Origin: Spirochaetota bacterium | GTDB lineage: Bacteria; Spirochaetota; Spirochaetia; Treponematales; UBA12059 | Length of the DNA stretch: 64,000 nucleotides | Direction of reading: 5' to 3' | NCBI GenBank assembly: GCA_029547205.1 | Contig: JAKPPT010000020.1 | Coordinates: forward strand, 62,001 to 126,000 | Shown: positions 2,164 through 19,694 of the stretch, one piece after another | Position numbering within the stretch: the first letter of the stretch is position 1 | Layout of the letters: each line of letters starts with the position of its first letter | Position numbers and translations under genes: made by a program | The notes under the pieces: model-generated | What the model was told of the DNA's origin: nothing | Database searches by the model: none | Seen by the model: only the letters and a program-made list of their open reading frames with translations

Positions 2164-4887
2164 TTATTTTTCCGTTAAATTGAATACTCCATCCCAGTCT
2201 TTTCGGGGTGGGTTTTTTATAAAGTTATCGCATCGAGATAAAAATGTTTTTGCAGGTGCATCATCTGCTTTGATTTTGAGCAGTGCGCTAAAGGCTTTTT
2301 GGCTTTCTTCGTATAATTTTTGTTCAAACAGTTCATGAGCTTGATTAAACTGTTGAATAAAACTTATATCCTCCGAAGACATCTCGCTTTCAATGCCAAC
2401 GAGCTCATAGAGCTGAATAGGGGTAGATATGCCAACGACACGAACTCTATCGAAAACACGAACAACAAAGCCGTCACCTGCATTCTTATACGTTTCTTCA
2501 CTGATAAGAATCCAGCTCCCGTATTGTTTATTCACTCCTTCCAGACGCGATGCCAGATTGACAGCATTTCCCATAATGGTGTAATTCATTTTTTGTTCAG
2601 TACCCATGTTTCCGACAACCATATCACCAGTATTAATTCCAATTCTGGTTAACAGAGGATTTGGAGAAAGCTTTTCTGCAAGTATTTTCTCGTTAAGTTC
2701 ACTCTCGGCCTGTTTCATTCTTATTGCAGAAATACATGCATTGCGTGCATGGTTCTCATTCCAGACAGGCGCTCCAAAAAAGGAAATGATTGCATCTCCC
2801 TCAAATTTATCAATTGTTCCCTGATTGGCAAGAATAATATCGCTCATGCGTGAAAGATAAATATTCAGTAAAAATACAAGCTGTTCTGGACTGAGCTGTT
2901 CTGAAATGGTCGAAAAGCCTTTAACATCAGTAAACAATGCTGTAATATATTTTTGTTCTCCACCCAATTTTAACAATGCAGGATTTCCAATGATTTCTTT
3001 AATAATGTCTTTGGATAAGTATGTACCAAAAGCTTTTTTTATAAAACTTTTTTCACGCTCGCTAAATATAATCGAAATAAGAATTGCAGAAAGGTAGGAA
3101 ATGAGTATGCTTAAAGCTGGCGCTACAAACTTAATAAATGTTCCGGTTATTAGGAAAATAAAATAAACTACGATAAAACAAATAGCTATATAAACTATTC
3201 CGGAGATTATTCTTAAAGCAGGATGATCGGTAAGCAGTGAAATAACCAGAACAATTACTATGCTTAAAATGATACAGAGTAATGCACTGAGCCAACTGGG
3301 TCCTTCAACAAGAAATTTGTTATTTAAAATAGTATTAACGACGGCTGCGTGTGTGCCAATATTTATATATTTTTCTTCAAAAGGATTTACGCCAATATCG
3401 GTGGTACCTGTTGCTGACCAGCCAACAATACAAAATTTATTCGCAAGTCTTTTTATAACTGCAGTGTAGCTTTCGTGAAAGGCTTTTACAGTAGAGGCAA
3501 GATCCGTAAAAAGGGCATTGAGCGCAACACCATCGTCTTTGAGCGTTTGTTTGACAGACAATGGCGCTTGTAGTGTATCAATGACAGAAACAATTTCACT
3601 GCCATACTGTGCCTGTATAAACTGATCAAGAATCCTAAAAAATTGATTGCGGTCGGTAATCCACTGTTCTTTTGCAAACTGTTCACCTGTTTCTAATGCG
3701 ATTGTTTTTGAGGTAAGCATTGCAGTATATGCATTCAATGCTTCATCAATCGGCTGGTATCCAAGACTGCAGTATGTCCAGAGTTTGCTTGTTTTTAATT
3801 TTTGTAAAATAGAAAAAATCTGCTCTTCGGTATCAGTTAGTGCAAGCAATTCAATTGCAGAAATATGGTCAAAGCTGTTTCTATATGTTTTTTTAGGCCA
3901 ATTGATAAGCATATTCCCGTGATTGTCTACAGGAATTATTATTGTCTTTTTTTCACCCTGTAAAAGCGCATCTTTAAGAATAATTGCATGTTTTTGAAGT
4001 ACTATTTCCGGATCGCCCATGAGAGCAACAAGAGGTCTAAACGCAAGCTGTAGATAAAATGCTTCACCAACTTTTTCTATAAGTTTAATTCTTCTTCTCG
4101 TTCCATCTTTATCGATAGTCACGTTAGTAAAGCCAGCACTTTTGGCATTTTCGGATACTTCTCTTATAGGGACAAGATAGTCGACATATTCAATACTCCA
4201 TGGGAAATTATGTATAATATTTTTATACGAAAAATTACTTTGAGCATAATTTTTAAGTTCTTTAGTTTGTCTTCCTCCTACTGTTGCATCTTTTTGTAAA
4301 TTGAGTGTCGTGTAAGTGCTACCAAAGAGGCGCATAGCTTGACCAAGATAGATATCGTTTTCTATAGCAACTTTGTATGTGTTGGATAGAAGAGTCTTTT
4401 TTGAATCTGCAATGCTATCAAGCAGCAGGGGCAAGAGTTCATCAAATGTGGTTTGTTTTGCTTTGAGCATTGAAAATGAATATTCGATATTATCGCCAAT
4501 ATCAGCAAATGCTATGGAAAAATCAAGCGGTAGACCATACATGAGATATTGCCGGTCTACACTCATGGGGCTGTTTTCAAGAAATTCTATATCAAATACC
4601 AGGTTTTGTGCCTGAGCAAGCGTTAAAATTTCAAGAATTTTGGCTACATTGCTGCGAGGCCATGGCCAGTCACCTTTTTCTATAATTGATTTATCATCGA
4701 CATCGATAATGATAAGGCTTTTATCTTCCTGAATTGAAGGTTTTAGTTTTAAGAATACATCGTACAGTGCGTACTCTACTGGTTGCCAGAATGCAAATAA
4801 ACTGAGCAGAGCAAAAACAATAGCAATTGTTCCTGCGACAATGCTAATAATCACTGTGCGATTTGATGACTTTTTATTTTTGTCCAT
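2164..4887 (-). CDS. CHASE2-domain class III adenylate cyclase
   Basis: The protein (907 aa) has an N-terminal membrane helix (about 12-34), a long extracytoplasmic CHASE2 sensor region, further helices around 545-615, and a C-terminal class III nucleotide cyclase domain (about 640-830). Metal-binding Asp residues are visible in ALFTDVKGFS and DKFEGDAI. The transition-state Asn and Arg are in YTIMGNAVNLASRL. The purine-selecting pair is Lys (IDKFEGD) and Thr (YTIMG), which favours ATP over GTP. All catalytic positions look intact, so it is predicted to make cAMP in response to an envelope signal. An AAGGAG lies 7-8 bp before the ATG. The gene is divergent from an envelope operon that includes a FecR protein. 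Confidence 0.9.
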   Translation of the reverse strand: MDKNKKSSNRTVIISIVAGTIAIVFALLSLFAFWQPVEYALYDVFLKLKPSIQEDKSLIIIDVDDKSIIEKGDWPWPRSNVAKILEILTLAQAQNLVFDIEFLENSPMSVDRQYLMYGLPLDFSIAFADIGDNIEYSFSMLKAKQTTFDELLPLLLDSIADSKKTLLSNTYKVAIENDIYLGQAMRLFGSTYTTLNLQKDATVGGRQTKELKNYAQSNFSYKNIIHNFPWSIEYVDYLVPIREVSENAKSAGFTNVTIDKDGTRRRIKLIEKVGEAFYLQLAFRPLVALMGDPEIVLQKHAIILKDALLQGEKKTIIIPVDNHGNMLINWPKKTYRNSFDHISAIELLALTDTEEQIFSILQKLKTSKLWTYCSLGYQPIDEALNAYTAMLTSKTIALETGEQFAKEQWITDRNQFFRILDQFIQAQYGSEIVSVIDTLQAPLSVKQTLKDDGVALNALFTDLASTVKAFHESYTAVIKRLANKFCIVGWSATGTTDIGVNPFEEKYINIGTHAAVVNTILNNKFLVEGPSWLSALLCIILSIVIVLVISLLTDHPALRIISGIVYIAICFIVVYFIFLITGTFIKFVAPALSILISYLSAILISIIFSEREKSFIKKAFGTYLSKDIIKEIIGNPALLKLGGEQKYITALFTDVKGFSTISEQLSPEQLVFLLNIYLSRMSDIILANQGTIDKFEGDAIISFFGAPVWNENHARNACISAIRMKQAESELNEKILAEKLSPNPLLTRIGINTGDMVVGNMGTEQKMNYTIMGNAVNLASRLEGVNKQYGSWILISEETYKNAGDGFVVRVFDRVRVVGISTPIQLYELVGIESEMSSEDISFIQQFNQAHELFEQKLYEESQKAFSALLKIKADDAPAKTFLSRCDNFIKNPPRKDWDGVFNLTEK

Positions 4888-4920
4888 TGCTTGCTCCTTT
4901 TTGTTTATTGCATACTACCT

Positions 4921-4949
4921 ATTTTCAATCGTAAGTATTGTCTTGTCAA
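4921..4949 (-). promoter_or_regulatory. Promoter of the CHASE2 cyclase gene
   Basis: On the minus strand TTGACA (4944-4949) is followed after 17 bp by GAAAAT (4921-4926), a four-of-six -10 match. The predicted transcript has a leader of about 27 nt containing AAGGAG ahead of the ATG at 4887. Confidence 0.5.
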
Positions 4950-5028
4950 ATACTAAATACGTATATAAAAACTAGAAAAAACTTTGGCACTGCAGTATTA
5001 TATAATTGTATCAATTTAAGGGGGATTG

Positions 5029-5475
5029 ATGAAAAAATTTTTAGTAGTAGTCTATGTTATTGTATTATACCAGCTTTTTGCGCAATCAGCTGTTTTCCTT
5101 GATGAAATCCTGAGCAGTAAGCAGATTACCTTTAGCCAGGCAGCATATCTTGTTTTTGTGGGGAATGGAGAATATCAGGATACTGTCCAACAAAAGGTTG
5201 CTTTAGAAGAAGCTCTTAAGCGAAAATGGATTAAGCAAACTGGGAATCCTGATAATCCAATTACTGTTGCACAATTTGCCTACCTTGTTATGAAGGCATT
5301 TGGAATAAACGGTGGACTGATGTATACACTTTTCCCTGGGCCGCGGTATGGATTCAGAGAACTCGTATATAAAGGATTGATTCCCAGGACTATTGACCCT
5401 CAAGCCTATGTAGATGGAGCGTTGGCATTACGGATAGTCCGTATTGCTGCTGAATTAAAGGGGTTAGATAAATGA
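5029..5475 (+). CDS. Exported small protein of unknown function
   Basis: The 148-residue product has a Sec signal peptide (residues 2-19, ending FAQ-SA). The rest is helical and weakly resembles S-layer-homology-like or peptidoglycan-associated small domains, but I cannot name a family. I chose ATG 5029 over the in-frame TTG just upstream because AAGGGGG (about 5018-5024) is correctly spaced for it. A TATAAT lies at 5001-5006. It is the first gene of a three-gene envelope operon: the next start overlaps its stop by 4 bp (ATGA). Confidence 0.75.
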   Translation: MKKFLVVVYVIVLYQLFAQSAVFLDEILSSKQITFSQAAYLVFVGNGEYQDTVQQKVALEEALKRKWIKQTGNPDNPITVAQFAYLVMKAFGINGGLMYTLFPGPRYGFRELVYKGLIPRTIDPQAYVDGALALRIVRIAAELKGLDK

Positions 5476-6665
5476 AAATAAAAAATATAAGTTTAATTGT
5501 AATACTAAGCCTTTCAATGTCATTGTTTGCGTGGGATTTTGGCCTAACAGTCAGCAATACAACTGTGTATAGTTATATCGAAGATTGGAATGTCAGCCAG
5601 AATAATCGAGCGTTACTCTGGATAAGTCTTCCAATAACTTCAAATATCAACTTGTATGTGTCCGGGTTCTATGAATTTGCTGGAGATTTCAGTACTGCAT
5701 CTACTGCATATAAACCATATCGTTTTGATGTTGGTAAAACATATTTTTCTTATAAACCATCACTGAGCAATTCTCGTTTAACCATAATGTTAGGACGACT
5801 TGAGACAGCTGATTTCACCACATCAATATACAGTGGCTTATATGATGGATTTTCTTTAAATTTCTTAACTGGAAATTCCCGATTCGATATACAGCTTGGG
5901 TATTTAGGTTTCCTTTACAAAAATGATGCACTTATTTTGATAGACGATGATGATGCTGCAGTATTTGTTGATGATAACCAGTACTTTGTAACTCCGCGTT
6001 TATTAGCTATGGTGGGTTATAAACTGGATGATTTTTTAAGAGGCTTTGATATTGGTTTTGAGTTCTGGTCTCAGTTTGATCTTAATCCGGCGGGAACTCC
6101 CACACATTCTCTGTATTATGAGCCACGATGTGCCTGGCATATCAACAACTATTTTTCGTTGAGTGGTTTTGGTATTCTTTCAATGGTTATCGATCCGGAA
6201 ATAGCTCTCAGCTATGCCTATGGTGCGGAATTTAAAGCCAGTATTCCTTCATTTTTACGTTCAACACTTACAATCAATCTTTTCACTTCCGGTAGTGTAA
6301 CGGGAGATTTTGTATCCTATGCTCCGATACGGCTTTTATCAGTATCACGCTATGCACATGGTATTTATAGCGATGCAACAGCTATCAGTGCAGAATTTTC
6401 ATTTGCTCCGCTTGCAACAATGATTTTTGCACTTCATGGTGATATACTTCTCCGTGAGGGAACAATAATTCCTGCTGGTTATGCACCTAATTCGGAAAGT
6501 CAATTTATTGGCAGCGAATATGGCATGCAATTTGTATGGCAGGTAGTGAGCGATTTTGCTTTACTAATGGGTGGAGGAGTATTTGTTCCAAATACACTTG
6601 GTGCATATCCATCAGATGCACCTATGGAATGGAAAGTACTGCTAAATTTTGTATTAAACTTATAA
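5472..6665 (+). CDS. Predicted outer-membrane beta-barrel protein
   Basis: The 397-residue product has a signal peptide ending near SLFAWDF, then alternating hydrophobic/polar strands rich in Tyr, Phe and Gly, and a C-terminus in ..LNFVLNL as is common for outer-membrane barrels. It contains an acidic DDDDAAVFVDD loop (about 160-170). No enzyme motif is visible and I do not recognise the family. It is translationally coupled to the small exported protein upstream (4-bp overlap) and is followed by a FecR-domain gene. Barrel assignment is inference from composition. Confidence 0.7.
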   Translation: MKIKNISLIVILSLSMSLFAWDFGLTVSNTTVYSYIEDWNVSQNNRALLWISLPITSNINLYVSGFYEFAGDFSTASTAYKPYRFDVGKTYFSYKPSLSNSRLTIMLGRLETADFTTSIYSGLYDGFSLNFLTGNSRFDIQLGYLGFLYKNDALILIDDDDAAVFVDDNQYFVTPRLLAMVGYKLDDFLRGFDIGFEFWSQFDLNPAGTPTHSLYYEPRCAWHINNYFSLSGFGILSMVIDPEIALSYAYGAEFKASIPSFLRSTLTINLFTSGSVTGDFVSYAPIRLLSVSRYAHGIYSDATAISAEFSFAPLATMIFALHGDILLREGTIIPAGYAPNSESQFIGSEYGMQFVWQVVSDFALLMGGGVFVPNTLGAYPSDAPMEWKVLLNFVLNL

Positions 6666-6682
6666 CACAATGGAGGACAATT

Positions 6683-7378
6683 ATGTATAAAAAAGTTTGC
6701 ACGATGTTTCTTGTTGTGATACTGACTGGAGCAGCTGCAGTCTTTGCACAGAATAAGCCACTACAAGCTACCATTAGTAAGCTTGCGGGAAAAGTTGAGG
6801 TTCAGCTTCCCGGCAAAGATTGGAGAGCAGCGAAAGAAGGAGAGCTCCTCCCAAAAGGAACCATGATATCAACCGGGTTTAAAAGCTCTGCTGTGCTTAC
6901 TGTCAATAACAGTTCCATTTTAGTAAAGCCCGTTACTCGAATGAAACTCGAAGAAATTGTACAGACTCAGAGCGGTACCAGCACACAGGTATATCTTTCT
7001 ACGGGTAAACTTTCGGTAGAGGTAACTCCTCAGCAGAATCAAACAACAGATTTTACCGTATCGAGCCCTACAGCTACTGCATCGGTTCGTGGTACAGGGT
7101 TTGATTTTGATGGTATCATGCTCATTGTTCACCATGGCGTTGTAGCATTACAAAATGTCACAGGACAGACTCGCCAGGTAACTCAGCAGCAAGCATCGAT
7201 TGTATCAGGAGAAGGCGATATTTCTGTGCCAGCGTTTGTTACGGATACTCAGGCACAGGCAGTATTGACCGAAGTTCTGGAACAGCAGCACGTCAGTGGG
7301 TTTTATAATTATTTTTCTACATTTGTTCCCAATGTGTCTCTTGGTACTGGTGCAGTTGTCGTATTTACATTGCAATAA
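6683..7378 (+). CDS. Secreted FecR-domain protein
   Basis: The 231-residue protein has a signal peptide ending AAAVFAQ. A FecR domain follows (about 30-155): the KLAGKVEVQLPGKDWRAAKEG start, the TGFKSSAVLTV strand and the SPTATASVRGTGFDF segment are typical. Unlike classical FecR it has no cytoplasmic anti-sigma region and no sigma-factor neighbour, so it probably acts wholly in the periplasm. The longest open frame begins at 6536, inside the barrel gene. ATG 6683 is preferred because GGAGG lies 7 bp upstream and the signal peptide begins there. It closes the 5029-7378 operon and lies opposite the CHASE2 cyclase, a pairing seen in other bacteria. Confidence 0.85.
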   Translation: MYKKVCTMFLVVILTGAAAVFAQNKPLQATISKLAGKVEVQLPGKDWRAAKEGELLPKGTMISTGFKSSAVLTVNNSSILVKPVTRMKLEEIVQTQSGTSTQVYLSTGKLSVEVTPQQNQTTDFTVSSPTATASVRGTGFDFDGIMLIVHHGVVALQNVTGQTRQVTQQQASIVSGEGDISVPAFVTDTQAQAVLTEVLEQQHVSGFYNYFSTFVPNVSLGTGAVVVFTLQ

Positions 7379-7399
7379 TGTTGTGTTGCTGGGCAGAAA

Positions 7400-7428
7400 A
7401 AAAAGGAGCTCGCAACGAGCTCCTTTTT
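7400..7428. terminator. Bidirectional intrinsic terminator
   Basis: GGAGCTCG (7405-7412) and CGAGCTCC (7416-7423) form a perfect 8-bp stem around a CAA loop. It is flanked by an A-tract on the left and TTTTT on the right, so it can end the FecR operon and the convergent acyl-CoA ligase gene. Confidence 0.85.
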
Positions 7429-7525
7429 ATATTTAGTGTACTCAAGCTGGGCATCTTTGAAGTGCTGTTAAGCAAAGCGCGCATCTTGATTTTGACTGTT
7501 TTACTATTGCCAGCGCGCAAGTTAG

Positions 7526-9436
7526 TTATTCTTCAAACAGATCATCTATCTCTTTTTTGTAGAGTTCATTGATCACATGGCGTTTTACTTCCTGTTTTGC
7601 AGAAAGTTCACGGTCAACCTCAAATGGTTTTAAGAGTAATTTGAACTTAAATATTCGTTCAAACCCTCTGAATCCATTTTTAATATTGATAAGGCTATTG
7701 ATTTCATAGTCAATGAGCTCTCGAATTTCTGGCTGGTTAATGAGTTCCTCATAATCAAAGAAGGGAATATTGTTATCTTTGGCCCATTGAATAACCATAT
7801 CCTGATCGGGAACAATTAAGGCTGCCAGATATTTTTTATCCTGTCCAAGGATAACTACTTGCTTGATATATTGACTCTCTTTGAGCTTGTTTTCAAGCGG
7901 AACGGGTTCAACGTTTTCACCGCCGCGGAGCACTATCGTGTCTTTTGCCCGTCCAGTGAGTTTAAGTTCATTATTTTTGGTGAGCATGCCAATATCGCCA
8001 GAATTGAACCAGCCATCGTCATCTATAACTTTTTTTGTAAGATCGGGTTTTTTATAGTAACCTTGCATAACCTGCGGTCCACGTATAAGGACAACACCTT
8101 TTTTCCCGTGCCCCAGTGTTTTGCCATGTTCATCGACAATTTTAACTTCGGTACCATCGAGCGGAGCTCCAACAGTTCCAATGACAGGTCTGCGATGTGA
8201 GCGCAAGGTAACCACCGGAGCTGTTTCAGTGAGTCCATAGCCTTCGAGAATCTTTATGCCAATGGCATCAAAAAACGTATCAACATTGTAGGGGAGAGCA
8301 CCGCCTCCAGAAATACCGGCAACAAATTTCCCGCCTAGTTTTGCTTTGATTTTTTTAAATACAAGAATCTCAGCGAGACCACGGAGTGGAGCAAGGCCTA
8401 TGAATGGTAATAGTGCAATGAGAATATCGAAAATGCGAGCACGTATGCCAAAATTGGGTAATCTACCTAGGAGCAGGTTTCTAAAATTAGCCCAATCCTT
8501 GCTGACTCCAACAAAGAAATTAAACATTTTTTGTTTAAACTGATTCTGCTGACGGATGTTGCGGTATACTCCTTCGAGTACCGATTCCCATATTCGCGGC
8601 ACACTGACCATCCACTGCGGCTTAATAGCAACAAGATCTGCAAGCATAATCTGTCCCACGGGTTTTGAATATGCAATGGTAGCACCAACACCGATAATTG
8701 CATAGTTCACAGCTCGTTCAAGTGAATGCCAGATTGGCAAGACCGAAAGCCATATCTGTCCTTCTTTAATGCGGATCCGTTTAGGGAAGGCTTCAATCTG
8801 GAATAGAAAATTGCGATGGCAGAGCATGACGCCTTTGGGTTCACCAGTAGTTCCTGATGTAAAGATAATGGTTACTGTATCAGTGTTTTTACCGAGAGCG
8901 ACTTCATGCTCGTATTCTCCTGGTTTTGCCTTGCGTCTTACGGTACCTTTTTCAAAAAGTTCAGCATACGTATGGATGGTAAGACCTACCGCTTGGGCAG
9001 ATTTTTGTACCGCTTCTGTCGGAGGATCAATGCAAATAATAGTTTTAAGAAGCGGCATACTGTCTTTACGAGCAAGTATCTTTTGTATCTGCCGATCATT
9101 CTCTGTAATGCAAAATTTGCACTCGCTAAAGGAAAGAATATAAGCAATATCCTGTTCAATAGTATCACAGCCACGGGGAACATCGATTGCACCAAGTCCC
9201 GTTACAGCAAGATCACAGATAAGCCATTCTTTCCGGTTGTCAGAAATAAAACCAATGTTGTCACCGCGTTGTAACCCTATTTCCAGAAATCCAGCTGCGA
9301 GCGTTGCAACTTCTTCTGCCATTTCACGATAGGTTGTTGGAGAAAAGTCTTTCCCGTTTTTTTTACTGTATTGCATCACCATATCTGGAATAGTTTGAGC
9401 TTTTTCCAAAAAAAGCTGAGGGATAGTCTCTGCCAT
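7526..9436 (-). CDS. Long-chain acyl-CoA synthetase (AMP-forming)
   Basis: This 636-residue protein belongs to the ANL superfamily and should activate fatty acids to acyl-CoA through an acyl-adenylate. The P-loop-like motif TIIFTSGTTGEPKGVMLCH is at about 185-203 and the adenine-binding GYGLTETAPVV at about 399. The C-terminal hinge and catalytic region carries NSGDIGML and LTGRAKDTIVLRGGENV. It has full family length and good motifs. Substrate chain length cannot be read from sequence. The gene is monocistronic with its own promoter, and AAGGAAGG precedes the ATG. Confidence 0.9.
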   Translation of the reverse strand: MAETIPQLFLEKAQTIPDMVMQYSKKNGKDFSPTTYREMAEEVATLAAGFLEIGLQRGDNIGFISDNRKEWLICDLAVTGLGAIDVPRGCDTIEQDIAYILSFSECKFCITENDRQIQKILARKDSMPLLKTIICIDPPTEAVQKSAQAVGLTIHTYAELFEKGTVRRKAKPGEYEHEVALGKNTDTVTIIFTSGTTGEPKGVMLCHRNFLFQIEAFPKRIRIKEGQIWLSVLPIWHSLERAVNYAIIGVGATIAYSKPVGQIMLADLVAIKPQWMVSVPRIWESVLEGVYRNIRQQNQFKQKMFNFFVGVSKDWANFRNLLLGRLPNFGIRARIFDILIALLPFIGLAPLRGLAEILVFKKIKAKLGGKFVAGISGGGALPYNVDTFFDAIGIKILEGYGLTETAPVVTLRSHRRPVIGTVGAPLDGTEVKIVDEHGKTLGHGKKGVVLIRGPQVMQGYYKKPDLTKKVIDDDGWFNSGDIGMLTKNNELKLTGRAKDTIVLRGGENVEPVPLENKLKESQYIKQVVILGQDKKYLAALIVPDQDMVIQWAKDNNIPFFDYEELINQPEIRELIDYEINSLINIKNGFRGFERIFKFKLLLKPFEVDRELSAKQEVKRHVINELYKKEIDDLFEE

Positions 9437-10330: not shown

Positions 10331-12592
10331 TTATGGTACAACGGTAATTGTTATTGCGTCGTTAGCGACATCAACCAGGGTTTTGCCACCTGCAGCAAGC
10401 CGTCCAAACAGCACCTCATCGACGTACCAGCTTTTTACTGTATCCTCAACAAGCCTGTTGATATTCCTCGCTCCAAATTCCTCGCTGTAGCCTCTATCTG
10501 CAAGCCAACGCACTGCCTGCGGTGTAATATCAAGCGTGACATGCTTTTCTGCAAGCTGAAGCCTGAATTCATCGATAGCTTTCATGACAATGCGTTCAAT
10601 AATTGGTTCAGGGAGACGGTTAAAGCGAATGACTGCATCGAGCCTGTTTCTGAACTCAGGAGTAAAGGTTTTCTCGACAGCATCGCTTATGGCAGCATCG
10701 GTTTCCTTGCGCTCGCCAAACCCGATGAGGGGCTTTCCGATTTCGCGGGCACCGGCGTTGCTCGTCATAATGAGGATAACATTACGGAAATCGGCACGCC
10801 GACCCTGATTGTCAGTAAGGGTGGCATAGTCCATAATCTGGAGGAGAATATTAAACACATCGGGATGAGCCTTTTCTATTTCGTCAAGCAGGAGCACCGC
10901 ATGCGGTGTTTTACGGATAGCATCGGTAAGGAGTCCGCCTTCTTCGTAACCGACATAGCCAGGCGGAGAACCGATAAGCCTGCTTACGGTGTGCTTTTCC
11001 TGGTATTCGCTCATATCAAACCGATGGAGCGTGATCCCCAGAATTTCTGCCAGTTTGCGAGCAAGTTCGGTTTTACCAACGCCTGTTGGTCCTACAAACA
11101 GGAAGTTTGCAACCGGTTTGTCCGGACTGCGGAAGCCAGCTCGGCTCCGTTTGATAGCTTTTACTACCTGTTCTATTGCAGTGTCCTGTCCAAATACAGT
11201 GGCTTTGAGTCGTGTTTCAAGCTCTGCAAGTTTTTGTGTTTCACTTTCGCTTACGGATTTTTCGGGTATACGTGCCATTTTAGCCACAATTTTTTCAACA
11301 TCGGATTCCTGTACTGTAATTGTTTCGGTTTCAGAGAGCCCCTGCTTATATGCGTTAATGCGAATCCACGAACCAGTTTCGTCGATTGCATCGATGGCTT
11401 TGTCGGGCAAATGGCGGTCATTCACATAAAGCGCTGTTAAATTGACAGCAGCTTCCAGTGCGGAATCGGTGTAGGTAACCTTGTGAAACGCTTCATAGCG
11501 GGATTTTAAACCTTTGAGTATTTCCAGCGCTTCAGCAGTTGTCGGTTCTTCAATATCAATTTTCTGGAAACGCCGAGAAAGTGCTCTGTCTTTTTCAAAG
11601 AATTTTTTGTATTCATCATACGTTGTAGAACCAATACAGCGCAGTTTCCCGCTTGAGAGCGCAGGTTTGAACATATTGGAAGCGTCAAGTGTGCCATTGC
11701 TTGCTGAACCTGCTCCAATGATCGTGTGAATTTCATCAATATAGAGGATGACATCATCACGGTTCAATAGTTCATCAATGACTCGTTTAATTCGCTCTTC
11801 AAAATCACCCCGGAAGCGAGTCCCTGCAAGCAAAGATCCCATATCGAGGCGGTATATAGTAAAGTTTTTAAGAAGTGGTGGCACAGTGCCATCAATAATA
11901 CGCTGAGCAAGCCCTTCCGTGATAGCAGTTTTCCCTACACCCGCTTCCCCAACATGAATAGGATTGTTTTTAATACGCCTGCAGAGTACTTGAATAGTGC
12001 GTTCAATTTCTTCTTCTCTACCTATAACAGGATCGAGTTTGCCTTCCTGGGCAAGCCGTGTCAGGTTAGTTGTGAAGCGTTCAAGAATGCTTTTACGAGT
12101 AGTCTGCGATGAGTCTTCCTCGTCAGTATCCTGTTCCGAGCCTTCCTCTGAGTAGTCTTCACTCATTTCTTCGATGCTGCTGTGTGAAATGACTTCGAGA
12201 AGCTGGAGTCTGTTTACTCCAGCTTTGCGAAGATAGTAGGCTGAATAGTTTTTTTCTTCATCAAAAATGCTCACGAGCACTTCGGGAATCCCGACTTCAT
12301 CCTTTCCAGCATTTTGCGATTGAAGCACCGCCCGCTCTATAACGTTCTGGAATCCAGTAGTCTGAACCGGTTCTCTATCTTTTACCTGAGGTATTTTCTG
12401 TTCAAAATAGGTTTCCATACCTCGAACAATATGATCAATATCTACAGAACATGCTTGGAGAATCGTACGTACTTCCTGGAACGAGAGAGCTGCATAGAGC
12501 AGATGTTCCGGTGTAAGATACTCATGGTTGCGAATTTTAGCCTCATTGTATGCAGCATTAAATATTGCTTGTACTTGCGCACTAACTTTCAT
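10331..12592 (-). CDS. clpA: ATP-dependent Clp protease ATP-binding subunit ClpA
   Basis: The 753-residue AAA+ unfoldase has an N-domain (1-145), an acidic Glu/Asp/Ser linker, a first AAA module with GEAGVGKTAITEG, and a second with GPTGVGKTELARK. Arginine-finger regions are intact. An IGF tripeptide (KPLIGFGER) sits where ClpA carries the IGL/IGF loop that docks ClpP, supporting a protease partner. ClpA lacks the coiled-coil M-domain of ClpB/ClpC, as here. It starts 6 bp after clpS, its adaptor, and is followed by aat. No clpP gene is present in the window. Confidence 0.95.
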   Translation of the reverse strand: MKVSAQVQAIFNAAYNEAKIRNHEYLTPEHLLYAALSFQEVRTILQACSVDIDHIVRGMETYFEQKIPQVKDREPVQTTGFQNVIERAVLQSQNAGKDEVGIPEVLVSIFDEEKNYSAYYLRKAGVNRLQLLEVISHSSIEEMSEDYSEEGSEQDTDEEDSSQTTRKSILERFTTNLTRLAQEGKLDPVIGREEEIERTIQVLCRRIKNNPIHVGEAGVGKTAITEGLAQRIIDGTVPPLLKNFTIYRLDMGSLLAGTRFRGDFEERIKRVIDELLNRDDVILYIDEIHTIIGAGSASNGTLDASNMFKPALSSGKLRCIGSTTYDEYKKFFEKDRALSRRFQKIDIEEPTTAEALEILKGLKSRYEAFHKVTYTDSALEAAVNLTALYVNDRHLPDKAIDAIDETGSWIRINAYKQGLSETETITVQESDVEKIVAKMARIPEKSVSESETQKLAELETRLKATVFGQDTAIEQVVKAIKRSRAGFRSPDKPVANFLFVGPTGVGKTELARKLAEILGITLHRFDMSEYQEKHTVSRLIGSPPGYVGYEEGGLLTDAIRKTPHAVLLLDEIEKAHPDVFNILLQIMDYATLTDNQGRRADFRNVILIMTSNAGAREIGKPLIGFGERKETDAAISDAVEKTFTPEFRNRLDAVIRFNRLPEPIIERIVMKAIDEFRLQLAEKHVTLDITPQAVRWLADRGYSEEFGARNINRLVEDTVKSWYVDEVLFGRLAAGGKTLVDVANDAITITVVP

Positions 12593-12598
12593 AGTAAT

Positions 12599-12910
12599 TT
12601 ATACCCTCTTCATGATGCATTTAAGTGGATACCCCTCTGCTCGTGCTCTTGTATGTACTTCATTGATTTTTGTTGATGCAATATCATAGGTATATACTCC
12701 AACAGCTGCGCGTCCTGTAGTATGCACGAGCAGCATGAGCCTTGTTGCTTCCACAGGATTTTTGTGAAAGATGCTTATGAGCACATCCACAACAAAATCC
12801 ATTGGAGTAAAGTCGTCGTTGAGCATAACTACCTCGTACTCCTCGGGGAAAGCTTGCTCAATGTCTTCCCCCTCGATCAGTGAGGTCTCATTATCGGTCT
12901 TAATACTCAC
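12599..12910 (-). CDS. clpS: Clp protease adaptor ClpS
   Basis: The 103-residue N-recognin delivers proteins with N-terminal Leu, Phe, Tyr or Trp to ClpA. The binding-pocket residues are conserved: MLNDDFTPMDFV supplies the Asn-Asp-Asp, Thr and Met, and LMLLVHTTG supplies the His. The start is GTG 12910. No Shine-Dalgarno sequence precedes it, and a -35/-10-like pair (TTGTTT-17-TATTTT) ends only 8 bp upstream, so this mRNA may be nearly leaderless. It heads clpS-clpA-aat. Confidence 0.95.
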   Translation of the reverse strand: MSIKTDNETSLIEGEDIEQAFPEEYEVVMLNDDFTPMDFVVDVLISIFHKNPVEATRLMLLVHTTGRAAVGVYTYDIASTKINEVHTRARAEGYPLKCIMKRV

Positions 12911-12913
12911 TAC

Positions 12914-12966
12914 GTATAAAAATAGCCTTTTTTCGCTAAAAAAACAAGTTCGCAGCGAATTGACGG
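12914..12966 (-). promoter_or_regulatory. Intergenic region before clpS: weak hairpin and T-tract, possible promoter
   Basis: After the lipoprotein gene stop, the minus strand has a short TTCG-CTG-CGAA hairpin followed by seven T residues, a weak terminator candidate. The same T-tract overlaps a TTGTTT-17-TATTTT promoter candidate for clpS. If both work, the envelope operon and the Clp operon are separated here. Confidence 0.35.
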
Positions 12967-13722
12967 CTAATAGGTCATCAAAGGACTTAATACGTAGCTT
13001 CCATACATGGGGAATTGTCCCGCCGGTATGTCCATAGTATTATAGTCTCCGTTAGACAAACTGCCATTGCCGTCTTTGTCCCAGAAAAAGTTAGCAATAT
13101 TTGTAGTATTACCATACCAGAATACGAACTTTTTGCAGAGCAAGGGGTCTGAAAAGGGGTAATGTGTCCCTTCGATATACAAGAATATTTTATGGGCTTT
13201 ATTAACCAATTCGGGGTTGCTATGCTGTATCAAAATAGTGTGCATATCAGTGTTGGTGGCAAATGACATGGGATGTGAGAAGTCCACAGTAGTTAGTACC
13301 AAAGTTTCTCCATCAATAAGATTAATTTGGGAGAATGGTATATAGCGGTCGCCTGTATCGAAATAGCCGCTTCCATTAGTGTCTTCTGCAACGAGGAACC
13401 ATACATCGCGCGCATGGAGATCGCGATCTTCCTTTTCATCTTTAATTTCATATACAATAGGATCAAGTCTCAACTCTGTAAGAGCATCTCCCGGCCGCAG
13501 CACGATCCCTTGTGTTATAAAGCTTTCATTAAATTGGGGGCGGTCATTTACGGCTATGTAGATAGGCTTGATGAAGTCTACATTTGGAGGAATGAACTCA
13601 TGGATGAGTATAGCAGAGGTGCAAAACCGATTGCTATCGCAGGATGCAGACAAAGCGGCAATTGCAAGCGCTATGAGGAAGCCTGCATGACATATTAGTT
13701 TCAAAACTGTACACTGCTTCAT
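12967..13722 (-). CDS. Predicted lipoprotein with two calcium-loop-like motifs
   Basis: The 251-residue product has a type II signal peptide with lipobox LSAS-C28. Two segments, DTNGSGYFDTGDRY (about 115-128) and DKDGNGSLSNGDYN (about 214-227), resemble EF-hand or dockerin calcium-binding loops (D-x-[DN]-G-x-G), which hints at calcium binding. Otherwise I do not recognise the family. It is the last gene of a five-gene operon, its start overlapping the upstream stop by one base. Envelope localisation follows from the lipobox; function is unknown. Confidence 0.75.
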   Translation of the reverse strand: MKQCTVLKLICHAGFLIALAIAALSASCDSNRFCTSAILIHEFIPPNVDFIKPIYIAVNDRPQFNESFITQGIVLRPGDALTELRLDPIVYEIKDEKEDRDLHARDVWFLVAEDTNGSGYFDTGDRYIPFSQINLIDGETLVLTTVDFSHPMSFATNTDMHTILIQHSNPELVNKAHKIFLYIEGTHYPFSDPLLCKKFVFWYGNTTNIANFFWDKDGNGSLSNGDYNTMDIPAGQFPMYGSYVLSPLMTY

Positions 13723-14855
13723 TAGAGTCCTCCCAGTTTAGATAAGGGCAGAAAAAAGAGTGAGAAATACAGCGTTGGAGTTCCCCATCGTGCAGCACTC
13801 GTTAAGAACACAAGACCGTTTACCCCATGTATAGTCTGTATACCGAGCGGATATACTGAGTTACCATAGACAACAATTTTTTTCTTTATAGCTAGAGTTC
13901 TGTCAAGGAGCTGGAATGTGGTGCTGTATCTATCCTTCGAAGCTGCCTGAAGCACCCATGGAACTCCCGCATCATCTTTGAACAGTACCGACGGAAGTGG
14001 TACCAGTACCCGTCTTGGTCCTACGATTGTAGAACTGTTTGTATCAAAGAGGAAGAGGTAACTCTCGGTCAAGTTAGTTAAGGCGCTCCTTTTTGTAATC
14101 CGGAGCAAGAGCAGCCTTTCGATGCTGAGTGTTTCTGCTTGTTCAATGGAAAACGAGCCTCCATTCCAGAAACTTGTGTTTGGGTAGGTACTGTTGTCAA
14201 GAAACGAGAAGGCATCTTTGAGCCTTGCTGTGACATCATAAAAATTTACCGGTGATGTAAATGCAGTTGTAATACTATCGTAGAGTGATATTCCCAGATC
14301 AGTGTCATTGTAACCTAACACTATATAACGTTTGTTCTGGAAGTCGTAAAGCGGAATTCGGGCAGTAGATAACGAAGATATATTATTATTATTAGTTCCA
14401 TAGGTAAAATACTCATTTGTCAGAATTGCACTATTATTAACGGAAAAATTAATTTCATATAAGGCACGGGTAGCAGTATTTCCGGTCGGCAGTGCAAAAC
14501 CCAGGCCTTGTTCGTGGCGCATGAGATACCATGGGTCTGCTCCAGTATCATTGCTGAGCACGGTTATGTAGTCACGGGAAAGAAAAAGAAGATTGTGTTC
14601 CGGGTTGACTGTTTCAGTAGTAGTGTAACGGATAAGGAGCACGCTCGTATCTTCTGGTTTGCCAGAAAGCACAGCTTTGGGAAAGTATTCGAAGTATCCG
14701 AGCATGTCATCCGGTAGCCGTTTGGTATAGATGTGCTCCATAGCAGGTATCTGCCGCGGGGGGATTTCACGGTTATCATACATGAATATATTGCAGGATA
14801 TGAGTGTAACCAGCAATGCAATGAGAACTATGGCTAGTAGGATTCTCGTTTTCAT
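13722..14855 (-). CDS. Predicted lipoprotein of unknown function
   Basis: The 377-residue product has a signal peptide with lipobox LIS-C21. The rest is rich in short beta-strand-like repeats with Tyr, Asn and Thr and no catalytic motif. This composition fits a beta-propeller or beta-sandwich but no fold can be assigned. The ATG overlaps the stop of the preceding barrel-like gene by 4 bp, so translation is coupled. It belongs to the 12967-18284 envelope operon. Confidence 0.7.
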   Translation of the reverse strand: MKTRILLAIVLIALLVTLISCNIFMYDNREIPPRQIPAMEHIYTKRLPDDMLGYFEYFPKAVLSGKPEDTSVLLIRYTTTETVNPEHNLLFLSRDYITVLSNDTGADPWYLMRHEQGLGFALPTGNTATRALYEINFSVNNSAILTNEYFTYGTNNNNISSLSTARIPLYDFQNKRYIVLGYNDTDLGISLYDSITTAFTSPVNFYDVTARLKDAFSFLDNSTYPNTSFWNGGSFSIEQAETLSIERLLLLRITKRSALTNLTESYLFLFDTNSSTIVGPRRVLVPLPSVLFKDDAGVPWVLQAASKDRYSTTFQLLDRTLAIKKKIVVYGNSVYPLGIQTIHGVNGLVFLTSAARWGTPTLYFSLFFLPLSKLGGL

Positions 14856-16060
14856 AAGCTAATCCTTAGTGCTACATAGGGTTCGGGAGCTGTAACTTTA
14901 AAGAGTGTCGATGGTATCGCTGTCACTATTGATGTTTGCGGTTGCATCTCGTGGTTAAGAACATACGCAGGCAACAGTGGACCAAGCCGCATGGTAAAGC
15001 CAATCGCTAAACGGATGGTTTGAACCACTCTAAAGTTTATGGCTGTATCGAACGCAATACCAAAAGGCAGCTCAGCAGGAAAGAAGATATCGTTTCCTGT
15101 GAGTGTAATGCGTCCAAAAAGCCTCAGGCTCATTCCGAGGCTTAGAAAGGCGAGCGGATCTTCCAAGAGTATGCTCGCACCGGCAGAGGCTTCGAGATAC
15201 GGAAAGGGCGGTTTCGTGAACGGGATGATAGCGATTGCCGAAGTTTCACCACCAACGGTTAAGCTGAAAAACCCCGGGAGCATGTAGTAGCGAGCGTAGA
15301 TTCCAGGAACCAGATTAGCGTAACGGAGTGTTCCTTCCATTTCCAAGTTTGGCAATTTTTTAAGATCGAGTGATATACCGAAATCTTCCTTGCCGATATA
15401 AATCGTTTTCTCGATGGGAATATAGCCAGGTAGGCTTGCGCGAAACTTGATAGAAGTATTCTGTTCCTGTTCCAAGGTGTACTTGCCCTCGGCATCTAGT
15501 TTGGCATTCCGTTTTAGGTTGATAAAGTTTATGGATGTTCCTGGGAGTCCTTCGAAGGTTATGACAGTACCCCGCGCTACGGTGATGACTTCGGTTTTTT
15601 CAACTACCTTTTCGGTTACTACCACACGTTCCTTTTGGGGAAGCGGAGGAAGGAGCCGGCCTGCTTCCTTTGATGTATCCTCAAGGAATTTATAGACGGT
15701 TCCCAGGTTGAGATTGGGAAAGCTCGCTGATTTGACGAGGAGTTCAGCCTTGGTATCGGTGCGGGTACCCTTGATTGTCAGCGTAAACGTGGATCCGCTC
15801 TGGACAGCCGACAGGTCGAATATCACGTCGGGCTTGTCGTCCGAAAAAACTGTTTTGGTGTTTTCGGTAAAGGCAATTTTGAGGTACTCAATCATGGTTT
15901 GGATCTGCTTTGCAAAGGGGCTCTTCTCATCATAGCGGAGGCTTACTCCCTGTGGAACAAGGTCTTTTTCAATTTCCCCGGCAGGCCTCGGTGTCTGCGC
16001 CATAACCGCTGCGGCAGCGCTAACACAGAGGATTAGATACAGAATGCGTAGCTGTTTCAT
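14852..16060 (-). CDS. Exported PEGA-like / beta-barrel protein (paralogue-like to the 17031-18284 product)
   Basis: The 402-residue product has a signal peptide ending VMAQ and an alpha/beta N-terminal domain (about 25-140). A Val/Thr/Glu-rich linker containing VVVTEKVVEKTEVITV follows, then a PEGA-like beta domain (about 165-225, with LPGYIPIEKTI). The C-terminal half is strand-rich and looks like an outer-membrane barrel, ending in VALRISL. The architecture mirrors the first gene of the operon. Its ATG overlaps the stop of the upstream lipoprotein by 4 bp. Function unknown; a cell-envelope role is inferred. Confidence 0.7.
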   Translation of the reverse strand: MKQLRILYLILCVSAAAAVMAQTPRPAGEIEKDLVPQGVSLRYDEKSPFAKQIQTMIEYLKIAFTENTKTVFSDDKPDVIFDLSAVQSGSTFTLTIKGTRTDTKAELLVKSASFPNLNLGTVYKFLEDTSKEAGRLLPPLPQKERVVVTEKVVEKTEVITVARGTVITFEGLPGTSINFINLKRNAKLDAEGKYTLEQEQNTSIKFRASLPGYIPIEKTIYIGKEDFGISLDLKKLPNLEMEGTLRYANLVPGIYARYYMLPGFFSLTVGGETSAIAIIPFTKPPFPYLEASAGASILLEDPLAFLSLGMSLRLFGRITLTGNDIFFPAELPFGIAFDTAINFRVVQTIRLAIGFTMRLGPLLPAYVLNHEMQPQTSIVTAIPSTLFKVTAPEPYVALRISL

Positions 16061-17037
16061 GGTTTCACCTCGATTGCGTAGAGTTGCCTCATTTTTTCGT
16101 AGTAAATCCGAGTAGCACTAAAGCCGTAATGGCCTATTTCCGGGTGATTGTTGTGGGCTAAGACTAGTATGGTTCTACCCGTCGAACGTGACAATAAGGT
16201 GCAGATCGTTGGATAGTCGCCGTCATTCCTTGAAGCGATAACAGCTATAAAAATGTCATTTACATAGAGGTACTGAGGCTGTAAATCCATAGGAATTTCT
16301 AGAGAAAACCTGAGAAGACCGTCAGCCACAGCAGTAGAATCAAGGGAGTTTGCTTCTGTATTAAAATCATTGCTTGATAGTTTTATGGAATAGATTTCAG
16401 TATTGGTGTCATAATGAGGGGTTATGCTTTCGATAATAAGCGCATAGAGTGTGCTTCCGTTCGTGTATACCCGATGAGGCATATTGGAAAAATTATGCTG
16501 ATAGTTGTTAGTACCTTGCCAAAGGGAGCCTGTATTGCTAAACCAGAGCGGCTCGTCGTTTATTGAAAACGGTTTAGTTGCATTCTCCTGGACAGCATGG
16601 ACAAAATTTTCTGGCACTTGAATTGCTGGACGTTTTTCTACAAATGTCTTTGTATCACCGAAGAGTATGATCCACTGCAGCCTATTGTACGGCACCATTG
16701 ATATTCTGCCACTCCCTATGTTCTTCGAGGCTGCGGGGAAGCGTGAGAAGCCAAAATCCGCAGAATAGCCTGTGAAGGTATACGTGCCAATCTTTTTGAG
16801 GTCCCTGTCATAGTAGGTAATTGTATTGTTGCTATGAACAACGTAGATACCATCTGAGTCAGGATCGATAGCGAGGAAACTGCAATCTGCATCTAATTGT
16901 ACCTGGGCTTTGATGCCAGGTGTTATGTAGGACGCAAGAAACTTGCCATAGCTGTTGTTATTCAAAACCGCTAGGTTACATCCGGTCTGCATGAACAGCA
17001 TAACCATAGTAAGCGCTATTGAAAGTTTCTTTACCAT
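16057..17037 (-). CDS. Predicted lipoprotein of unknown function
   Basis: The 326-residue product has a signal peptide and lipobox MQTG-C20. The mature part carries repeated short strands such as DSDGIYVVHSNNTITYYD, reminiscent of a beta-propeller, but no family is recognised. The longest frame starts at 17058. ATG 17037 is preferred because a GTGAGG sits 6 bp upstream and the signal peptide begins there (MVKKLSIA). The start lies inside the end of the upstream barrel-like gene (7-bp overlap). Confidence 0.72.
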   Translation of the reverse strand: MVKKLSIALTMVMLFMQTGCNLAVLNNNSYGKFLASYITPGIKAQVQLDADCSFLAIDPDSDGIYVVHSNNTITYYDRDLKKIGTYTFTGYSADFGFSRFPAASKNIGSGRISMVPYNRLQWIILFGDTKTFVEKRPAIQVPENFVHAVQENATKPFSINDEPLWFSNTGSLWQGTNNYQHNFSNMPHRVYTNGSTLYALIIESITPHYDTNTEIYSIKLSSNDFNTEANSLDSTAVADGLLRFSLEIPMDLQPQYLYVNDIFIAVIASRNDGDYPTICTLLSRSTGRTILVLAHNNHPEIGHYGFSATRIYYEKMRQLYAIEVKP

Positions 17038-18284
17038 ATGTACCTCACTCCAATGCACAGGTGCAGCGTAAAGGGAATCTCTCCAATGATACCCCAGCTC
17101 AGGTAAGATGGGCTGACAAACTGTAGCTCACCAGACATGGCAATAGTTCCGGGAATAAGTGTCATACCAAAGCTAACCATACTCCTCATCGTGGCTGCAC
17201 CAAATTGAAAAGGAGAGGGGAAATTAGCAAAGTACAACTCTCCACCCGTTGCAAGCCTTAGATACGGTTGGAAGATATACTGTGGATTAAACAGCCCTAT
17301 GGGGTAGAAGGTAAGCGTTACAAAGAGCGGAATTTCAAAAAAAGCGCGTGGGTCATGCGTCTCGGTGTCAAAGTTGAAATCCATTGGAATGACAAAGAAG
17401 CCGCTTTGCGCGCCGTAATAGAAAATATCGGGGAAGATTGCGCGGGAATACATGCCGTTAAACCCAAGTGGTCTGTCGCTCGCCACAAAAACCTGCACTT
17501 CGTTATAGGAAACGGGAACGAGTCCGCGCGCAGTAACCGTAGGCTTTTTGCTCGTTGCCTTAAATTGTATTGTTTTGGGATAGAAACCCTGCTTTTTTAT
17601 GGTGATGATGAGCTCGGCCCCTTCCTTGGTGTCCACAGCGAGTTGCCCATTCTCGATGACGCCAAGGAGTGTTTCGCCGATGAAAACTTCCGCACCGTTG
17701 TCCTTGGATTGCAAGATTATGGTAACCGGTGTTCCCTGTTCCACAACTTCTTCCACCGTGGTAGTCTCTACCTTGGTTACTTCCCGGTAAATGATGAGCT
17801 CGCTTTCCGGCAGCGGCTGCAAAGCCTCGCGGATACGCTGGGCTACTTTTGCGGAGATATCGTCGATGGTTTCAAAAACAGCGACGCCGCCCTTGCCTGT
17901 GTTAAATGCAGCAACTGCATTGAGCCCTGTTAAAATGTCAATGGCACGCACGCCAACATGCAGCGTGTTGCCTTCTATTACATAAAAACCCAGGACTACG
18001 ACATCGGCTTTTTGTGTTTTTGCAAACTCAATAAGAGCGGGTTCGTCAAGTAATGAACCTTTATAGTTTTTTCGGATTATATTGGTGTCAATGACTGTAT
18101 AGCCAATACGTTCCAGTTCAATTGCAATAGTATCTGCACAGATGCTGGAATAATCAGCTTCGCTGTTATTCATGGGGGCAAAATCAAAAACTGCGACGGT
18201 CCGCTCGATGAGTTTTTGAGCATGCACAAGCGGTGTAAATATGCAGAGTATGGATATAAAAAATACATAATGCAGCTTCTTCAT
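17031..18284 (-). CDS. Exported protein: CsgG/TolB-N-like domain, PEGA domain, C-terminal barrel
   Basis: The 417-residue product has a signal peptide (MKKLHYVFF..VHAQ). Its N-terminal alpha/beta domain (about 25-150) begins RTVAVFDFAPMNNSEAD and resembles CsgG/TolB-N-like periplasmic domains. Then come an acidic Thr/Val linker (KVETTTVEEVVEQGTPV), a PEGA domain (about 180-235, KKQGFYPKTIQFKA) and a strand-rich C-terminus ending HLCIGVRYIW. ATG 18284 is chosen over 18308 because a promoter ends 7 bp before it and the signal peptide starts there. It is the first gene of the five-gene envelope operon. Function unknown. Confidence 0.75.
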   Translation of the reverse strand: MKKLHYVFFISILCIFTPLVHAQKLIERTVAVFDFAPMNNSEADYSSICADTIAIELERIGYTVIDTNIIRKNYKGSLLDEPALIEFAKTQKADVVVLGFYVIEGNTLHVGVRAIDILTGLNAVAAFNTGKGGVAVFETIDDISAKVAQRIREALQPLPESELIIYREVTKVETTTVEEVVEQGTPVTIILQSKDNGAEVFIGETLLGVIENGQLAVDTKEGAELIITIKKQGFYPKTIQFKATSKKPTVTARGLVPVSYNEVQVFVASDRPLGFNGMYSRAIFPDIFYYGAQSGFFVIPMDFNFDTETHDPRAFFEIPLFVTLTFYPIGLFNPQYIFQPYLRLATGGELYFANFPSPFQFGAATMRSMVSFGMTLIPGTIAMSGELQFVSPSYLSWGIIGEIPFTLHLCIGVRYIW

Positions 18285-18320: not shown

Positions 18321-18358
18321 GAAAAACCTACCTGCTATCTGACAGACAGCAGGTAGGT
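18321..18358 (-). terminator. Intrinsic terminator of the aminotransferase gene
   Basis: ACCTACCTGCT (18326-18336) and AGCAGGTAGGT (18348-18358) form a perfect 11-bp stem with an inner TCT/AGA pairing. On the minus strand it is followed by TTTTTC. It stops transcription from the aminotransferase just ahead of the envelope-operon promoter. Confidence 0.85.
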
Positions 18359-18416: not shown

Positions 18417-19694
18417 TTATTGACCTTCAGGGCTGGTCTTTGCCCTGTGTCCGGATTCATAGGTTTCAATTTCACGGGTGATAATGCGAGCGAGTCGTTT
18501 TATGCCTTCTTCGATTGTTGCGGGATCTGAATACGAGAAGTTGAGGCGCATTGCGTTGTGTTCAGGGTTGTCATAGTAGAATGCAGAGCCAACAACATAG
18601 GCAACTTTTTCTTCTTCGACAGCTTTGATGATGAGTTCATCGGTGTTGATATAATGTGGTAAGCTCACCCAGAGGAAAAGTCCCCCCTCGGGTTTGGTCC
18701 AGGTAACATCCCAGCGTTTTGGCATGTATTTTTCTAAGCATTCGACCATTTTATTGCGCTTTTCCCGATAGTTGTCACAGGTTTTCTTGATGGTGTCGTA
18801 GAGTTTCCCCGTGCGCATATATTCAGCAAGCCATTTTTGGGAAAACACATTGGTGCAGAGATCCATAGCCTGCTTGGCAATCACACATTTGGCAATAAAT
18901 TTTTCATGTGCCATAATCCAGCCTACACGGACGCCAGGAGAGAGTATTTTTGAGAATGTCTTGAGATTGATAACGATACCCCTGTTTTCGCCCTGTTGAT
19001 CAAGCTGGTAAATAGAAGGTAGATGATCTCCGAGGAAGCGAATTTCCCGATAGGGGGAATCTTCTACAATGAGTAAATCCTTACGGTATGCAAAATCGAG
19101 AAGAGCCTTTCGTTTTTCAAGGCTCCAGCAGAGTCCTGCAGGATTTTGAAAATCAGGAATTACATAAATATATTTTATTTTATTCCCACGCGCTTTTGCT
19201 TTGGCGAATTCGCGTTCAAGAATTTCCATATTAAAACCATCGCGTTCTGGAGTAAACGGAATGCCAAGCACATGTGCTGAATACGATTGAATAGCCTGAA
19301 TAGCTCCTACATAGGTAGGACGGCCTGCGATCACATAATCACCCGGATCGAGGAGTATTTTGGCAACCATATCGAGTGCCTGCTGGCTGGCTGAAACAAT
19401 TAGCAGATTTTCTGGTTTAGGCTGAACACCCTGACGGTTTTCAAATTTTATTATTTCTTCTTTGAGACCATTGTCACCTTCTGTGGTACCATACTGTAAA
19501 GCACTTTTGGCTTCTTTTTCGAAGACGCGATCCGCAGCTTCTTTTAAGTCAGCAACCGGAAACGTTTCAGGAGCTGGAAGCCCACCTGCAAATGAAATAA
19601 TCTCAGGGCGTGCAGTCAGTTTAAGCAGTTCTCGAATGACACTTTTTTTCATATTACGAGCGTTCGATGAAAAAACGCTGTCAAAATCCATCAT
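18417..19694 (-). CDS. PLP-dependent class I/II aminotransferase
   Basis: The 425-residue fold-type I enzyme resembles the LysN/aromatic-type branch: ISFAGGLPAPETFP near the N-terminus, LQYGTTEG, LIVSASQQALDMV, and the PLP-binding Lys in LKTFSKILSPGVRVGW (about 245). The substrate-binding Arg in MRLNFSY is present. The amino donor and acceptor cannot be fixed from sequence; 2-aminoadipate, aromatic or branched-chain substrates are possible. It lacks the GntR DNA-binding domain of MocR proteins. A GGAG lies upstream of the ATG, with another in-frame ATG three bases later. Confidence 0.88.
   Translation of the reverse strand: MMDFDSVFSSNARNMKKSVIRELLKLTARPEIISFAGGLPAPETFPVADLKEAADRVFEKEAKSALQYGTTEGDNGLKEEIIKFENRQGVQPKPENLLIVSASQQALDMVAKILLDPGDYVIAGRPTYVGAIQAIQSYSAHVLGIPFTPERDGFNMEILEREFAKAKARGNKIKYIYVIPDFQNPAGLCWSLEKRKALLDFAYRKDLLIVEDSPYREIRFLGDHLPSIYQLDQQGENRGIVINLKTFSKILSPGVRVGWIMAHEKFIAKCVIAKQAMDLCTNVFSQKWLAEYMRTGKLYDTIKKTCDNYREKRNKMVECLEKYMPKRWDVTWTKPEGGLFLWVSLPHYINTDELIIKAVEEEKVAYVVGSAFYYDNPEHNAMRLNFSYSDPATIEEGIKRLARIITREIETYESGHRAKTSPEGQ

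Follow-up and report, generated by a model that had tools for sequence, protein, structure and literature searches.

A five-gene spirochete envelope operon as a predicted cyclase-less relative of a class-wide cassette

What is the role of a tightly packed operon of five envelope genes in an uncultured spirochete? The operon lies in a 64,000-nucleotide stretch of contig JAKPPT010000020.1 from a Spirochaetota bacterium (GCA_029547205.1), referred to here as the window, and a preliminary description had read it from the sequence as an undescribed series of PEGA-barrel proteins alternating with lipoproteins. Its coordinates, strand, and overlaps of 1 to 7 bp were borne out (Table 1): the genes run head to tail and overlap by 7 (A/B), 4 (B/C), 4 (C/D), and 1 (D/E) bp. 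The A/B overlap reads ATGGTAA, with the start of B sitting within the end of A. Pfam and NCBIfam scans returned no family above the cutoff for any of the five proteins, and hence no enzymatic family, in agreement with the earlier statement that none carries an enzymatic motif. A PDB sequence search with the five profiles gave nothing significant. The intrinsic terminator between the aminotransferase gene and gene A indicates that the operon is probably transcribed as a separate unit. Promoter-like matches near the operon were no more numerous than chance, and none is claimed. Downstream lie genes that we take, from their sequence alone, to be clpS-, clpA-, and aat-like. The slight GC excess over the flanks reported at first is present (0.450 versus 0.442 and 0.434; window, 0.418 ± 0.036 per gene), but we judge it uninformative.

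Table 1. Features of the operon and its upstream flank (window coordinates)
Feature	Coordinates	Strand	Description
Gene A	17031..18284	minus	417 aa; signal peptide, TolB-N/PelC/LpoB-like domain, linker, modeled sandwich and barrel; C-terminal Trp
Gene B	16057..17037	minus	326 aa; predicted lipoprotein, conserved Cys20
Gene C	14852..16060	minus	402 aa; paralogue of A with the same layout; barrel predicted by homology
Gene D	13722..14855	minus	377 aa; predicted lipoprotein, conserved Cys21; outside known families
Gene E	12967..13722	minus	251 aa; predicted lipoprotein, conserved Cys28
Intrinsic terminator	18326..18358	minus	between aminotransferase gene and gene A; -25.2 kcal/mol, z -5.8
PLP-dependent aminotransferase gene	18417..19694	minus	upstream flank, outside operon

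Proteins A and C begin with SPase I-type signals, read by eye as ..VHA/Q and ..VMA/Q. The AF2 model of A, built from a shallow alignment of four sequences (pLDDT 69, pTM 0.42), contains an alpha/beta domain reaching about residue 155, a Val/Thr/Glu linker at residues 158 to 184 that is disordered (pLDDT about 27), a PEGA-like beta-sandwich at residues 186 to 251, and eight long strands of about 8 to 16 residues between residues 261 and 416. Foldseek matched the N-terminal part to TolB, FlgT, PelC, GNA1162, and LpoB, with TolB among the best matches (E 5.7e-7), so that this part of A has, in the model, the TolB N-domain fold. The C-terminal part was matched to NspA, Ail, OmpA, and PagL, and a viral structure library gave nothing beyond small OMP barrels. 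A soluble, non-barrel C terminus was looked for as a possible refutation; instead, the single model predicts, with moderate confidence, an eight-strand outer-membrane barrel. PEGA (PF08308) was not matched in A or C at Pfam's curated cutoff, and the same search of the window's own genome hit eight other places, none within the operon. The PEGA label is thus not supported at that cutoff, but the model does place a beta-sandwich there, and A may be called PEGA-like by its modeled fold. FlgO (PF17680) in A (19.2 versus 22.6 bits) and CarbopepD_reg_2 in C (24.9 versus 32.2 bits) also fell below their cutoffs, the latter pointing to a CarbopepD_reg-like sandwich. By profile comparison, A and C are homologous over their full length (E 3.5e-9, 347 columns, score 74), with reversed-sequence controls scoring ≤22 for this pair and at most 35 for any pair. 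Together with the linker found in both proteins, this bears out the common barrel-like layout and the duplication proposed earlier, and from the homology we infer that C also carries a barrel.

The lipobox cysteines of B, D, and E are invariant among their homologues, and each protein has an N-terminal hydrophobic stretch, which agrees with the earlier call of three lipoproteins, presumably processed by SPase II. The AF2 model of B reached a pLDDT of 34. The proteins B' and D' of the related cassette described below occupy the same places as B and D, but profile comparison detected no homology between B and D, B and B', or D and D', suggesting that lipoproteins of these types are either fast-evolving or replaceable. 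The best value among the lipoprotein comparisons, for D and B' (P 0.006), is not claimed as homology. Protein E contains two Asp-rich motifs resembling calcium sites, DTNGSGYFDTGD and DKDGNGSLSNGD (window positions 13030 to 13110 and 13335 to 13400, found by eye), which are partly kept in homologues and suggest that E may bind calcium.

The window genome belongs to a family (f1) whose order, Treponematales in the NCBI taxonomy, also holds Gracilinema (Treponema) caldarium; three members of this family are public MAGs labeled Spirochaetes bacterium, for example GWB1_60_80. A contig scan with a single protein gave no match, and a scan with the alignment found three loci in the named MAGs. All five genes occur in the window order in two genomes (G002 and G011), and partial copies, which end at contig edges, comprise the end of A with B to E (G005), A, B, and the start of C (G010 C7), and part of E (G001). 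The proteins share about 17 to 42% identity with the copies in other genera of this uncultured family while the gene order is kept, which rules out chance ORFs. The A/B junction is ATGGTRA in five of five readable five-gene copies, in that the last Trp codon and the stop of A hold the Met-Val start of B. The aminotransferase gene stands upstream of the operon in all four genomes where this can be seen, at 74 to 79% identity.

Weak matches to A in sister genera belonged to a second cassette with the order cyclase-A'-B'-C'-D'. Profile comparison linked A to A' (E 6e-21) and C to C' (E 1e-22), with reversed controls far weaker. A tree of 51 sequences separates A plus A' from C plus C' with support of 100/99, so that the duplication that gave rise to A and C predates the divergence of the five-gene and cyclase-linked operon types. 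The window operon has an orthologue each for A' and C', next to one another and in the order of that cassette. Profile searches of 294 genomes of the order gave matches to A' in 55 genomes and to C' in 54, spread over families f1, f4, and f5; a sample of the phylum added further families of this class (f6, f8, f12, f18, and f22). Among the matches listed, none was in family f3. Two cultured strains carry the pair, G. caldarium H1 (chromosome of 3,239,340 bp; PMC3739177) and Salinispira pacifica (3,782,798 bp; PMC4511686).

Frequent separation of the genes in relatives, which would have spoken against the operon as a unit, was not seen: a C-type gene lies next to the A-type gene on the same strand in 55 of 57 loci, and in the remaining two the contig breaks off there. 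An overlap of 4 to 13 bp between the A-type gene and the one that follows is possible at 31 of 32 junctions, a count that takes the earliest possible start and so leans towards overlap, and 15 junctions read ATGGTRA. We regard the tight coupling of the genes and a probable envelope complex as supported. However, a fixed stoichiometry of five proteins, as first implied, does not hold, since in 29 of 55 loci A and C are direct neighbors with no intervening lipoprotein gene (read directly in G006 C42) and E is confined to the five-gene form. Two cassettes occur in some genomes (loci L138 in G381 C39, L115/L116 in G039, L029 in G010 C124, and L030 in G006 C42 are concerned). L029 (A-B-C) and L030 (A-C) make up a third type, which groups with the five-gene form in the trees of both A and C. 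In L032 (positions 6664 to 7806, G006 C2), an in-frame TAA interrupts A', and B', C', and D' appear intact.

A HAMP class III cyclase gene lies directly upstream of A' in 30 of 34 readable relatives, across eight families; the exceptions are L113, L122, L138, and L142. The encoded proteins have HAMP and class III cyclase domains and one predicted periplasmic domain, at about residues 30 to 165, and are 50 to 63% identical over their length. At four loci (L112, L114, L118, and L123) the lipoproteins are missing and cyclase, A', and C' are still together. In the window genome no full-length orthologue of this cyclase was found, and the gene upstream of A is the aminotransferase gene. Genomes with the five-gene form show matches to other cyclases in the catalytic domain only, indicating that the dedicated cyclase is absent from them. 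On these sequence comparisons, the window operon is best described as a divergent, cyclase-less relative of a class-wide cassette and not its typical form. The label "undescribed" is consistent with our finding no description but understates the case, as the core pair is class-wide and normally sits behind a receptor-type nucleotide cyclase. Most cassettes are also flanked by a convergent gene for a protein of about 700 to 960 aa with TPR motifs, a possible extra partner. In L109 (positions 11878 to 14262) this protein has about 790 aa and comes just after D', the same place as in most cyclase-linked cassettes.

Trans-envelope control of a cyclase is known from YfiBNR, in which the diguanylate cyclase YfiN acts with YfiR and YfiB. 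The cyclase-linked cassettes resemble this system (DgcN/YfiN) in how they might work, as judged from general knowledge: the genes for an outer-membrane part and for a HAMP cyclase of the inner membrane, equipped with a periplasmic domain, lie together, and the cyclase of the relatives gives weak matches in its HAMP region to DgcN/YfiN and to a model of a YfiR-associated kinase. In contrast to YfiBNR, the relatives have a class III rather than a diguanylate cyclase and barrel proteins in place of YfiB and YfiR, and the window operon, having no cyclase at all, does not belong to that system.

We propose that a small eight-strand barrel would anchor each of A and C in the outer membrane, with a TolB-N/PelC-like domain, tethered by a flexible linker, and a PEGA-like sandwich held in the periplasm, and we infer that the two proteins form a complex in the outer membrane. 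B, D, and E would serve as accessory components with a lipid anchor, their synthesis tied to that of the barrels through stop/start coupling. In the ancestral role, A' and C', with B' and D' where present, would serve as sensors or anchors at the outer membrane and, by periplasmic contact, act on the HAMP class III cyclase encoded upstream, setting the cyclic-nucleotide output. In the window lineage, which has lost the cyclase, the complex might work with another inner-membrane partner or have been reused, a derived role in either case. An outer-membrane sensor or anchor built on the A/C pair and ancestrally feeding a receptor cyclase, with the signaling taken from gene order, is the reading we rank first, at slightly less than an even chance, because cyclase-A'-C' is the minimal set that is left when the lipoproteins are dropped. 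More tentatively, the cassettes could represent an undescribed trans-envelope signaling system of the class Spirochaetia, in which a heteromeric, barrel-anchored TolB-N/PEGA-like pair would sense the outer membrane or surface and itself gate the inner-membrane HAMP class III cyclase, lipoproteins that can be exchanged would set the input, and the window version would have shed the cyclase.

The adjacency of the cyclase gene to A' and C' may, however, reflect coregulation only. If so, A and C could instead assemble beneath the outer membrane into a ring or scaffold in the periplasm, comparable to those of PelC, CsgG, and FlgT, that anchors or exports something. The Foldseek matches of the N-terminal domain to FlgT, PelC, and GNA1162, and also to LpoB, fit such a structural or secretion complex, as does the existence of a five-gene form with no cyclase. 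We consider it rather unlikely, as no secretion gene is linked to the operon, the cyclase linkage extends across eight families, and eight-strand barrels are too narrow for export. The comparison with known proteins also has limits. PelC, LpoB, FlgT, and FlgO share the fold class of the N-terminal domain of A (FlgO as a match below the cutoff), but A has an SPase I signal and a barrel anchor, and the operon has no Pel, flagellar, or peptidoglycan synthesis genes. TolB likewise shares this domain fold but continues into a C-terminal beta-propeller where the model of A has a sandwich and a membrane barrel, and no Tol genes lie beside the operon. OmpA, NspA, and Ail resemble the modeled C-terminal fold; unlike them, A has no sequence-family match and carries its barrel behind two periplasmic domains. 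TP0923 of Treponema pallidum, a PEGA-domain protein among the known or predicted surface-exposed OMPs (PMC10600179), resembles A as a predicted spirochete OMP with a PEGA-type domain, a likeness of domain type only.

Two further readings appear improbable to us. The operon might be an accessory to lipid or lipoprotein trafficking, since in three genera (G001, G005, and G011) E is followed, about 200 to 235 bp on, by a Lol-like module of an ABC ATPase, two FtsX permeases, a PF17131 LolA-like protein, and an OMP. In the window genome, however, the matching module lies on another contig (ABC ATPase 82% identical), and most cyclase cassettes have no such module beside them. Or there may be no joint complex, the two small barrel proteins and the lipoproteins being merely coexpressed envelope or surface proteins. 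The lipoproteins are missing or unrecognizable in many relatives, so the parts are not all interdependent, but the A/C pair is separated only where a contig ends and has been retained ever since the old duplication, which argues against this reading.

Spirochetes have many nucleotide cyclases. In the open-licence literature on spirochete PEGA proteins, adenylate cyclases, and CsgG, we found no description of such a cassette and no nucleotide cyclase tied to an outer-membrane partner. No curated Pfam or NCBIfam family was matched above its cutoff by any A- to D-type protein scanned, and the protein families are thus new to annotation. Outer-membrane parts coupled to an inner-membrane cyclase are a kind already known; what is new is the protein families and the unusual cyclase-less form in the window. 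If the barrels couple to the receptor cyclase, they would provide a concrete, testable input route for spirochete signaling, and cultured carriers exist. As separate observations, a LolA-like/OMP/ABC/FtsX module lies divergently beside one cyclase-linked cassette (L033, positions 10788 to 15823). Near the operon, at window positions 2164 to 7378, a minus-strand CHASE2 class III cyclase faces plus-strand genes for a small protein, a barrel-like protein (5472 to 6665), and a FecR-like protein; this may be a further cluster for envelope sensing.
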